NCBI GenBank assembly: GCA_017434885.1
Contig: JAFSGE010000030.1
Location: 282,197-346,196 of the forward strand
Reading direction: 5' to 3'
Origin: Lachnospiraceae bacterium
GTDB taxonomy: Bacteria > Bacillota > Clostridia > Lachnospirales > Lachnospiraceae
Length of the DNA stretch: 64,000 nucleotides
Shown here: in pieces, positions 6,291-9,184 of the stretch
Position numbering within the stretch: position 1 is the first letter of the stretch
Layout: each line of letters starts with the position of its first letter
Notes under the pieces: model-generated
The model's input: only the letters and a program-made list of their open reading frames with translations
Told to the model about the DNA's origin: nothing
The model's database searches: none
Made by a program: the position numbers and the translations under genes

Positions 6291-6614
6291 TTAAAAATTA
6301 CCGAAACTGTTAAATGTTTTAGGTTCTAAACGTACATCAGACCGGTTATCACCGCATCCGCAATCCATGTCGTTATTGTTTCTACTGCTTCTGTTACACT
6401 CACAGTCATCACCGCTGTTACGACGACTATTGTTATCACACTCACAGTCACAATTATCGTTTCTGTCACGGTCTTTTAATCGACATTCGTGATTTCTTTC
6501 GTACGAATGGTCATTTCCGCATCCGCAACTGCTATTGCCGATTCTTCTGTCACCGCCGCAAATACCGTTATCTTTGCAACAGCAAAGTAAAATAATTAAC
6601 CATATACAATTCAT
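6291..6614 (-). CDS. Small Cys-, Asp- and Asn-rich protein of unknown function
   Basis: The 107-residue protein starts with a hydrophobic segment ending in three cysteines (MNCIWLIILLCCC) and continues as a low-complexity region rich in Cys, Asn, Asp, Arg and Ser with repeated CGCG, CDCEC and DCECN units. A strong TAAGGAG lies about 7 nt before the ATG and a terminator follows, so it is a real single-gene unit. Similar short Cys-rich proteins with a hydrophobic start occur in spore-forming Clostridia and may be envelope or spore-coat material. That role is inference. Metal binding is possible from the Cys content. Confidence 0.7.
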   Translation of the reverse strand: MNCIWLIILLCCCKDNGICGGDRRIGNSSCGCGNDHSYERNHECRLKDRDRNDNCDCECDNNSRRNSGDDCECNRSSRNNNDMDCGCGDNRSDVRLEPKTFNSFGNF

Positions 6615-6677: not shown

Positions 6678-7217
6678 TTATGCCTTTTTATTTAAAATAT
6701 TTTTTCGGATATAAGAAAAAGTAGCTTCTTCTCCTTCTTCGGCCAGCATGTACAGAAATTTTTCCAGTAAAGCTTTGGTTTCTTCATGAATAGGTGCTTT
6801 TTCTTTTCCTTTCAAATAATAATTCAAAGGGTCTTTCTGGGTATATGTTTCTCCGTTATAAATTTTGCAGGCAGCAATACGGTCCATTAACATTTCAACC
6901 ACATATTTATGCGGCATTGGTGCCGGTGCCATTCCTCCGGTAATATCTTTGGTACTGTAATCAATCCAATATTCATAATGATGTTTATTTCTTCCTTTGT
7001 GATGAAGCCATGCAGAAGAATACCCGATAGCTTCTCTTTCGGCGTTATTGGGACTGCGATTTCCTTGATAATATTTTACGCCTACAAGAAATTCTGTGAG
7101 TCCGTACTTTGACATATCATGAAATAATCCCTGTTTATACAATCCTACTTTAAAACAGCCTTTCATTACCTGCCATTTATGACGTGTAATGGTTTTAAAA
7201 TGTTTCCATGCTTTCAT
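6678..7217 (-). CDS. DUF5662 family protein (HD-like)
   Basis: This 179-residue protein resembles the DUF5662 family. Histidine-aspartate clusters are prominent: GLFHDMSKYG near residue 35 and WLHHKGRNKHHYEYW near residue 73, arranged like metal ligands of an HD-type fold. No reaction is known to me. The start lies inside the 3' end of the upstream GH13-like gene (23 nt overlap), with GGAGAT about 10 nt before the ATG, so translation of the two is probably coupled. Confidence 0.82.
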   Translation of the reverse strand: MKAWKHFKTITRHKWQVMKGCFKVGLYKQGLFHDMSKYGLTEFLVGVKYYQGNRSPNNAEREAIGYSSAWLHHKGRNKHHYEYWIDYSTKDITGGMAPAPMPHKYVVEMLMDRIAACKIYNGETYTQKDPLNYYLKGKEKAPIHEETKALLEKFLYMLAEEGEEATFSYIRKNILNKKA

Positions 7218-9093
7218 GTTTGTTACGATCTCCGTTTTCTTTTACTGATGGAGCTTTCTTTTTTTGCGTTGCTGTCTTCTTTTCTTTCAAAAAGGATTCA
7301 TCAGGTACTGCACTGTAAAGGCATACACTGCGGCCTTCTGCCAAAATCAGATGCTCCGGCATAGTTCTTTCTTCTTCAATTTGCCCGGATGTGGAAAATA
7401 TCCGTTGCCATTTCTGTCCTTTGGGCAATTTGGGTAATGCCAGTCTGTGGGCTTCCCAATGCATATTGTACGCAAGGTAAAGAGCCTGCGTCTGCTCTCT
7501 TTCATCATTTTGGCAAAGCATAATCCCTGTCATACGGCTAATGTAAGAAACATCCGGTCTCCAGGCCTCTGTTCCGTGATAAGAAATATCAGGATAACCG
7601 CAGGATGTGGCGTCAATTCCTTTCAATTCCTGCTTTTGATGGAGAATTTTATACTTTTTGCGTAGCGCAATCAATTCACAGGCAAAAGCAAACAAATCTG
7701 TTGCAAAACGTCCGTTACTCCATTTCACGTAACCAATTTCATTATCCTGACAATAAGCGTTGTTATTTCCGAATCTGGTATTACCGAATTCATCACCGCT
7801 GAACAGATACGGTATCCCCTGTGATAAAAACAGAAAAGAAAATGCATTTTTTATCTGCTTCTTTCGCAGTTCTAAAACTGCCTTTTTACGGCTTTCACCC
7901 TCTGTTCCGCAGTTCCAGCTATAATTCAAATCTGTTCCGTCATGATTATCTTCATGATTTGCCTCATTGTGCTTTTGTTCATAAGAAACCATATCATAAA
8001 GAGTAAAACCATCATAATCTGCCATGTAATTGACATACACGCAAAAATCAGAATTGTTTTTTTGATAATGTATTACCTGATTAATCAGATTTTCATCTCC
8101 CTTTAAAAATCTTCTCATATCATTTCTGAAATTACCGTTATCTGAAAGAAGATTTTTGTATAAGGGTATTTTATTCCCGTAAATATCTTCAAGAGGGAAA
8201 TAGGTACTCCGTATTTTTGTTCTTTTTAATATGGCATCTTCCGCAATCTGGATAAAGGGAATCTTAAATCCGCTAAGTCTTATTCCGTCAATGTGATATT
8301 CCCGTACCCAATATCTCAACACATCCATAATGTAGGAAGCTTTTGCTGTGGGCGGAAAATAAAAGTGCATCAAAACTTCAATTTGGTTTTTATGCAATTC
8401 TTTTACCATGTTTTTGAAGGAGATATCCGGTCGTTCCATACTGTAAGAAGCTTTTGGTGCAAAATAATATGCTTCCTGAAATCCCCAGCAATTGACACGG
8501 TTTTTCAGCTTGTCCGTCTTATCTTCCATACATTCGTCATATTCATATGCCGGCATCAATTCAACTGCGGTTATCCCCAGCTTTTTTAAATGGGGAATTT
8601 TTTCGCAGACACCTTCAAAAGTACCTTTTTTTCTAACTTTTGCACTTTTGTCCATGGTAAAGGCTCTTACGTTCAAACCGTAAATTATCGTATCTTCCAC
8701 CGGTAACTCTAACGGTTTGTCACCTTCCCAATCATATTCGGAACGGGTTAAGACACCATAAGTCTTTCTTTTTTCTTTTTCAAAATTGCCCCAAATATTC
8801 AGTCCGTTTACAAGTTTTGCATAAGGGTCCGTAAAAACGGTTTCCCCATCATAAAAATTATATGTTTCAAAAGGAAATTCCTTTTCATCCGATTCAAGCA
8901 ATACCCCGTACAAAATTCCGCATTTTCCTTTATCGGAAAACGGAATTTTAACTTCACGACCGTTCTTATCGTAAAGCAATACACCGATTTCTTTGTCACT
9001 TTCTGTCTCCGTCGCAAAAAAGTATCCTTTTTCGGCAGAATATACTCCGGCTTTATCCGGCTGATAGTAAGTAATTTTCAGTTTTGATTCCAT
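7195..9093 (-). CDS. GH13 glycogen-debranching-like protein lacking catalytic residues (probable pseudoenzyme)
   Basis: The 632-residue chain follows the isoamylase/GlgX plan: an N-terminal beta domain, a TIM barrel from about residue 135 (IIYGLNVRAFT) and a C-terminal beta domain. The fold markers remain (GTFEGVCEKIPHLKKLGI, YDGFTLYDMVSY, FLFLSQGIPYLFSGDEFG), but the catalytic signatures are changed. Region I D-x3-NH has become VLMHFYFPP (240-248). In region II the nucleophile Asp is Ser274 (DGIRLSG). The region III Glu position appears to be Thr297. In region IV the His before Asp361 is Tyr360. AGGAGG lies 5 nt before the ATG at 9093. Glycan binding or regulation is more likely than hydrolysis. 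Confidence 0.85.
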   Translation of the reverse strand: MESKLKITYYQPDKAGVYSAEKGYFFATETESDKEIGVLLYDKNGREVKIPFSDKGKCGILYGVLLESDEKEFPFETYNFYDGETVFTDPYAKLVNGLNIWGNFEKEKRKTYGVLTRSEYDWEGDKPLELPVEDTIIYGLNVRAFTMDKSAKVRKKGTFEGVCEKIPHLKKLGITAVELMPAYEYDECMEDKTDKLKNRVNCWGFQEAYYFAPKASYSMERPDISFKNMVKELHKNQIEVLMHFYFPPTAKASYIMDVLRYWVREYHIDGIRLSGFKIPFIQIAEDAILKRTKIRSTYFPLEDIYGNKIPLYKNLLSDNGNFRNDMRRFLKGDENLINQVIHYQKNNSDFCVYVNYMADYDGFTLYDMVSYEQKHNEANHEDNHDGTDLNYSWNCGTEGESRKKAVLELRKKQIKNAFSFLFLSQGIPYLFSGDEFGNTRFGNNNAYCQDNEIGYVKWSNGRFATDLFAFACELIALRKKYKILHQKQELKGIDATSCGYPDISYHGTEAWRPDVSYISRMTGIMLCQNDEREQTQALYLAYNMHWEAHRLALPKLPKGQKWQRIFSTSGQIEEERTMPEHLILAEGRSVCLYSAVPDESFLKEKKTATQKKKAPSVKENGDRNKHESMETF

Positions 9094-9184
9094 TCGGCCT
9101 CCTGCCACACTTACAACATTTTATTTTTTCATAATTATCTACTTGTCTATGATATCATAAAACAGGTAAAGTGTGCAAAAAATA

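Follow-up and report, generated by a model that had tools for sequence, protein, structure and literature searches.

Within a 64,000-nucleotide stretch of a Lachnospiraceae genome (assembly GCA_017434885.1, contig JAFSGE010000030.1, positions 282,197 to 346,196; hereafter the window), we analyzed a gene for a protein related to the glycogen debranching enzyme GlgX, which has lost the catalytic residues of its family and which we consider a probable non-catalytic accessory protein of glycogen metabolism. The gene and its features, together with the adjoining DUF5662 gene, are collected in Table 1. An initial annotation, made from the sequence alone, had described an intact frame with a strong ribosome binding site, as is indeed the case. 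Scans of the DNA for promoters and terminators returned about as many candidates as expected by chance (13 against a mean of 11.5, and 3 against 2.6, respectively).

Table 1. Coordinates in the window of the pseudo-debranching gene, its former and retained sites, and the adjoining gene
Feature	Position	Strand	Basis or remark
Pseudo-debranching (GlgX/isoamylase-like) gene	7195..9093	minus	632 aa plus stop (from the ATG at 9093 to the last stop-codon base at 7195); Pfam, NCBIfam, alignment, structure model
AGGAGG ribosome binding site	9098..9103	minus	4 nt ahead of ATG
Former region I, residues 243-248, HFYFPP; Asp, Asn, His lost	8350..8367	minus	alignment
Former nucleophile codon, now Ser274	8272..8274	minus	alignment, codon checked
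Former acid/base codon, now Thr297	8203..8205	minus	alignment, codon checked
Former region IV His codon, now Tyr360	8014..8016	minus	alignment, codon checked
Region IV Asp retained, Asp361	8011..8013	minus	alignment, codon checked
Putative retained lobe segment 1, residues 361-400, with Asn376 and Trp393	7894..8013	minus	residue spacing to ISA1 border lobe
Putative retained lobe segment 2, residues 433-460, GDE...GNNNAYCQDN, with Asn443	7714..7797	minus	residue spacing to ISA1 border lobe
DUF5662 gene; overlaps 3' end of pseudo-debranching gene by 23 nt; weakly HD-phosphohydrolase-like	6678..7217	minus	domain search, structure comparison

The GlgX/isoamylase-type fold that had been proposed for the protein is kept. 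Pfam assigns it an alpha-amylase catalytic domain together with an isoamylase 1-3 C-terminal domain, and its predicted structure comprises the full isoamylase fold, with N-terminal domain, barrel and C-terminal domain. Of the NCBIfam models, TIGR02100 (GlgX) fits best, and its E-value of 6.7e-95 rules out chance similarity, even though the score of 318.6 bits is half of the curated cut-off of 640.9 and does not reach it. By sequence, the nearest solved structures are plant ISA1, followed by GlgX/TreX.

For the active site we follow the region names and catalytic roles that are common knowledge for family GH13. A paper that tabulates archaeal GH13 enzymes agrees with them (PMC11046441). We aligned the protein with the catalytic GlgX of its own genome (701 aa, intact, and the only further relative there at E ≤ 0.001) and with 61 other catalytic homologues, which bore out every substitution of the initial annotation: the Asp, Asn and His of the region I motif D-x3-NH are replaced by His243, Pro247 and Pro248, the nucleophile Asp by Ser274, the acid/base Glu by Thr297 and the region IV His by Tyr360. 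Arg272 of region II and Asp361 of region IV are still present. The GH13 triad Asp-Glu-Asp thus reads Ser274, Thr297, Asp361, with two of three residues lost and neither Asp nor Glu at the nucleophile or acid/base position. Further, the protein lacks about 58 residues between regions I and III, a segment that measures 59-61 residues in all 49 proteins of this pseudo type in our tree set (see below) versus 119-123 in all 62 catalytic homologues. With both the nucleophile and the acid/base residue lost and the loop deleted, the sequence of the window protein excludes hydrolysis by the GH13 double-displacement mechanism.

The losses recur among relatives of the protein. We searched 37 genomes of the genus, 299 of the family (298 genera) and 291 of the class. 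In the genus, 36 of 37 genomes had some match and in 35 the best match was the orthologue, the other two (G009, G030) being 59% and 78% complete; the catalytic residues were read in 31 of the 35. In the family, 214 of 299 genomes had an orthologue at E ≤ 1e-120, and all 60 loci that we read (the 30 best and the 30 weakest) lack the region II Asp and the motif of the deleted loop. In the class, nine genomes matched at E ≤ 1e-110. Eight of these belong to the same family, and the pseudoenzyme therefore appears confined to it within this sample; the ninth match (G597) spans only residues 258-608, as do pieces of catalytic GlgX. Among the best 80 of 597 matched stretches from named genomes, sorted by the nucleophile column, 61 were catalytic and 19 of the pseudo type, 15 of the latter labelled Lachnospiraceae.

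In a tree of 49 pseudo-type proteins (30 genus loci and the 19 from named genomes) and 62 catalytic ones (61 named and the GlgX of the same genome), the pseudo type formed one side of a branch with a Shimodaira-Hasegawa-like approximate likelihood ratio test (SH-aLRT) support of 100, apart from catalytic GlgX; this was a quick tree, midpoint-rooted for drawing, and six pseudo-type rows were flagged as long branches. The pseudo-debranching protein probably descends from an isoamylase-type GlgX.

That the gene is kept rather than decayed, as first suggested, agrees with the state of the orthologues. Their frames read intact, and the ratio of nonsynonymous to synonymous substitution rates (dN/dS) was 0.050-0.115 in 11 orthologue pairs, all of them pseudoenzymes and three sharing members. 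Synonymous sites were saturated (dS above 1) in nine pairs, so that the two less saturated ones, with ratios of 0.115 and 0.109, weigh most. Of the 60 family frames, two reach only 439 and 467 aa and may be broken or truncated at contig ends. Intact frames and ratios well below 1 rule out a recently decaying pseudogene. Neither outcome that would have overturned the initial annotation, catalytic residues still in place on alignment or orthologues all in decay, was thus observed.

We then compared conservation between 108 pseudo-type proteins (the 49 and 59 family loci) and the 62 catalytic ones. None of the 108 has the nucleophile Asp, and 11 have the acid/base Glu; in region IV, His occurs in 21 and Asp in 44, and in region I the Asp, Asn and His occur in 11, 2 and 0, respectively. 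Along residues 251-360, which cover regions II and III up to strand 7, only three columns reach at least 95% identity, versus 35 in the catalytic set. The two segments at 361-400 and 433-460 have 25 such columns, versus 33 in the catalytic set. Asn376, Gly386, Asn394, Glu398, Asp434 and Glu435 are identical in all 108 proteins, and Asn443-445 in 107, with one gap. Trp511 is a candidate marker of a surface specific to the pseudo type, as it is Trp in 107 of 108 pseudo-type but 26 of 62 catalytic proteins.

These segments may correspond to a part of plant ISA1 that lines its glucan channel. In maize ISA1, R504, N561, W578 and N628 are described as lying in a 'border lobe' on one side of the channel, with W578 touching the glucan at a secondary glucan-binding site (SBS2), and four missense variants at these residues as having no detectable activity (PMC12510319). 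By residue spacing, they would be Arg327, Asn376, Trp393 and Asn443 here. The maize numbering was mapped through the spacing in Arabidopsis and rice ISA1, of which rice agrees with maize for all four residues and Arabidopsis is off by one at R504. The putative equivalents are kept in 105, 108, 94 and 107 of the 108 pseudo-type proteins, respectively.

The distribution of the pseudoenzyme links it to glycogen branching. We sought GlgB, GlgA and catalytic GlgX in the same 299 family genomes, using as GlgX query the active-site segment spanning the loop that the pseudo type lacks, and found them in 283, 289 and 99 genomes, respectively. The pseudoenzyme occurs in 213 of the 283 genomes with GlgB versus 1 of the 16 without (p = 3e-8), and among genomes at least 90% complete in 180 of 238 versus 1 of 12 (p = 4e-6), both tests ignoring phylogeny; a branching enzyme is thus present in 213 of its 214 carriers. 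The pseudoenzyme follows the branching enzyme and not any particular debranching enzyme.

The genome of the window itself encodes two branching enzymes above the curated cut-off, an 813-aa form with an extra N-terminal part and a charged C-terminal tail, and one of about 640 aa (L207:7716-10154; G000:C36:76872-78731). By eye, the catalytic motifs are intact in both. Four genomes of the genus (G016, G021, G017, G013) have GlgA and GlgB, with neither GlgX nor type I pullulanase detected.

The best reading of the protein remains the 'glycan-binding or regulatory pseudoenzyme' of the initial annotation, which we narrow to a non-catalytic accessory protein of glycogen metabolism that would bind glucan and act as a scaffold or regulatory subunit. 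We hold this to be probable, with room for doubt. An isoamylase-type GlgX would have lost its nucleophile, its acid/base and the loop that joins region I to region III, while the whole fold was kept along with key residues of the lobe that lines the glucan channel in plant ISA1. The retained lobe would then bind the alpha-glucan chains of glycogen. A binding or scaffolding role is suggested by selection, breadth of distribution and retention of the lobe residues; put simply, the cutting residues are lost, those of the sugar-binding surface are kept and many relatives keep the protein, so that it probably holds or organizes glycogen. Glucan binding, the partners and any regulatory effect on them are what we infer: the protein may scaffold or regulate the enzymes acting on glycogen, namely the branching enzyme, debranching enzymes where present, and 4-alpha-glucanotransferase, much as plant ISA2 accompanies ISA1, or GlgD accompanies GlgC.

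Several observations weigh against this proposal. Catalytic enzymes conserve the same lobe residues, so that the conservation could be purely structural. Within the pseudo-type proteins, conservation is lowest over the N-terminal 110 residues, which does not favor a binding role for them. The link to GlgA is weak (pseudoenzyme in 210 of 289 genomes that have GlgA versus 4 of 10 that lack it; p = 0.03, ignoring phylogeny), and the link to GlgB was likewise computed without phylogeny, where a gene may seem absent because an assembly is incomplete or a match was missed. In 132 of the 214 carriers we detected no catalytic GlgX, so that no fixed partner emerges. Finally, in 60 selected family neighborhoods (20 of the 30 weakest matches and 40 from the stronger list), no gene cluster present in at least five of them resembled a glycogen gene. 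This was a visual judgment based on the initial residues, and a few clusters had no name; the recurrent neighbors were housekeeping genes, DUF1292 and DUF5662. These neighborhoods, so judged, speak against a glycogen operon.

In the window's own genome, pseudoenzyme and GlgB lie about 120 kb apart. Nine loci (L208-L216) were selected for a nearby GlgB and are thus uninformative on frequency; GlgB immediately adjoins the pseudoenzyme in L208 alone. There, in one family member, MalQ, an exonuclease-like gene, pseudo-GlgX and GlgB form a compact run on one strand (L208:6327-12929). A TraX-family (PF05857) protein is encoded directly downstream of the pseudoenzyme at L216:15278-15979, where it lies between pseudoenzyme and DUF5662, and at L211:14943-15626; a TraX-like protein occurs at +1.2 to +1.4 kb in 11 of the 60 family loci.

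The most serious alternative is that the protein is a subunit of the ISA2 type, working only as a hetero-oligomer with the catalytic GlgX of its genome, as plant ISA2 is reported to raise ISA1 activity in rice (PMC12892837). The genome does encode an intact GlgX, and in the family the two are weakly associated (both in 82 genomes, pseudoenzyme only in 132, GlgX only in 17, neither in 68; Fisher p = 0.003). Yet the same counts leave most carriers without a detected GlgX, which argues that the pseudoenzyme is not simply a GlgX subunit, and in the genus 13 of 35 carriers, up to 99% complete, had no GlgX match at E ≤ 1e-10. This phyletic pattern makes an obligate subunit less likely, and we regard the alternative as unlikely.

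Less likely still, the protein could be a glycogen or sugar sensor acting with the neighboring DUF5662 protein, a putative HD-type phosphohydrolase. In the latter, His and Asp residues are invariant, and its structure weakly resembles those of HD-GYP and other HD phosphohydrolases; Pfam assigns it no function, and we found no report on it in the open-access literature. The translational coupling of the two genes proposed in the initial annotation stands only in part: they are adjacent on the same strand in all 35 genus loci and overlap by 23 nt here, but they overlap in just 19 of the 35, and in the family DUF5662 lies directly downstream in 23 of the 60 selected loci. Beyond it in the window, an open reading frame at 6291-6614 encodes a short protein with a very high content of Cys, Asp and Asn, with no match in Pfam or NCBIfam and a tblastn counterpart in just 2 of 34 other genus neighborhoods.

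It is improbable that the protein still works as an enzyme by some non-GH13 chemistry (for instance transferase or phosphorylase-like) carried by other residues. Type I pullulanase matched in 5 of the 13 GlgX-less carriers of the genus and, among family genomes taken in list order and thus non-randomly, in 12 of 30 with the pseudoenzyme only (one match below the curated cut-off) and 6 of 29 with neither. Hence in 8 of 13 and 18 of 30 GlgX-less carriers, type I pullulanase went undetected as well as GlgX, and as nearly all of them have GlgA and GlgB, the debrancher slot would be vacant. Asp361 is moreover retained in 30 of 31 aligned genus members. The pocket side, however, has lost most of its conservation (3 columns versus 35 at residues 251-360), the region IV Asp persists in only 44 of 108 proteins across the family, and all three GlgX-less genomes examined encode proteins that resemble neopullulanase or cyclomaltodextrinase without reaching the curated cut-offs and might supply debranching. 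Least likely is a moonlighting or structural protein unrelated to glucan, with which the housekeeping neighbors and the long branches of several pseudo-type proteins would agree, but which sits poorly with purifying selection and with the finding that, of the 16 family genomes in which GlgB was not detected, a single one has the pseudoenzyme.

Returning to the glucan-binding accessory protein, we can extend the proposal tentatively, to a scenario that we think possible but would not favor as a whole: Lachnospiraceae would have evolved, independently, once and early, a GlgX-derived non-catalytic organizer of glycogen, which needs no catalytic isoamylase partner and holds glucan chains by its lobe, so that it partly sets glycogen structure in a major family of gut bacteria, possibly signaling through the DUF5662 phosphohydrolase.

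We found no earlier description of a bacterial dead GlgX in titles and abstract openings among the matches listed from the open-access literature, where absence is no proof. Inactive prokaryotic GH13 copies as such have already been noted, since a table of archaeal enzymes marks one as an 'inactive isoform' (PMC11046441). Homology-based annotation is likely to label the pseudoenzyme a glycogen debranching enzyme, and glgX counts in gut bacteria may be inflated as a result, since 132 of 299 family genomes carry the dead copy only. Two glgX homologues are reported for Blautia obeum in a review (PMC10395257).

Among known systems, GlgX (TIGR02100) shares fold and family with the window protein and is its probable ancestor, but has the nucleophile, the acid/base and the loop of about 58 residues that the latter lacks. 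The fold of GlgD differs from that of the window protein. GlgD, beside GlgC in gut bacteria, is also a non-catalytic subunit of the glycogen pathway according to the same review (PMC10395257), but acts at ADP-glucose synthesis. The GlgX of Streptomyces venezuelae (7u3b), regulated by cyclic di-GMP, is catalytic, unlike the window protein.

By analogy, the nearest precedent for the pseudoenzyme is plant ISA2. According to the maize study, ISA2 likewise has an isoamylase fold that has lost its catalytic residues, nucleophile included, throughout its clade and is kept under selection; it joins in non-catalytic effects on glucan, and the reason why plants retain it is stated as not understood (PMC12510319). 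The same study reports the SBS2 sequence as missing from ISA2, whereas the pseudo-type proteins appear to keep equivalents of SBS2 and the border lobe. The window protein also scores higher against Arabidopsis ISA1 than against ISA2 (262.5 versus 123.5 bits). Because of this difference in score and in the retained site, its origin was probably independent of plant ISA2. Unlike ISA2, it is bacterial, and most of its carriers have no detected catalytic GlgX. If our proposal is true, this independent bacterial case, often without a detected partner, would separate a glucan-organizing role from that of a partner to an active enzyme.
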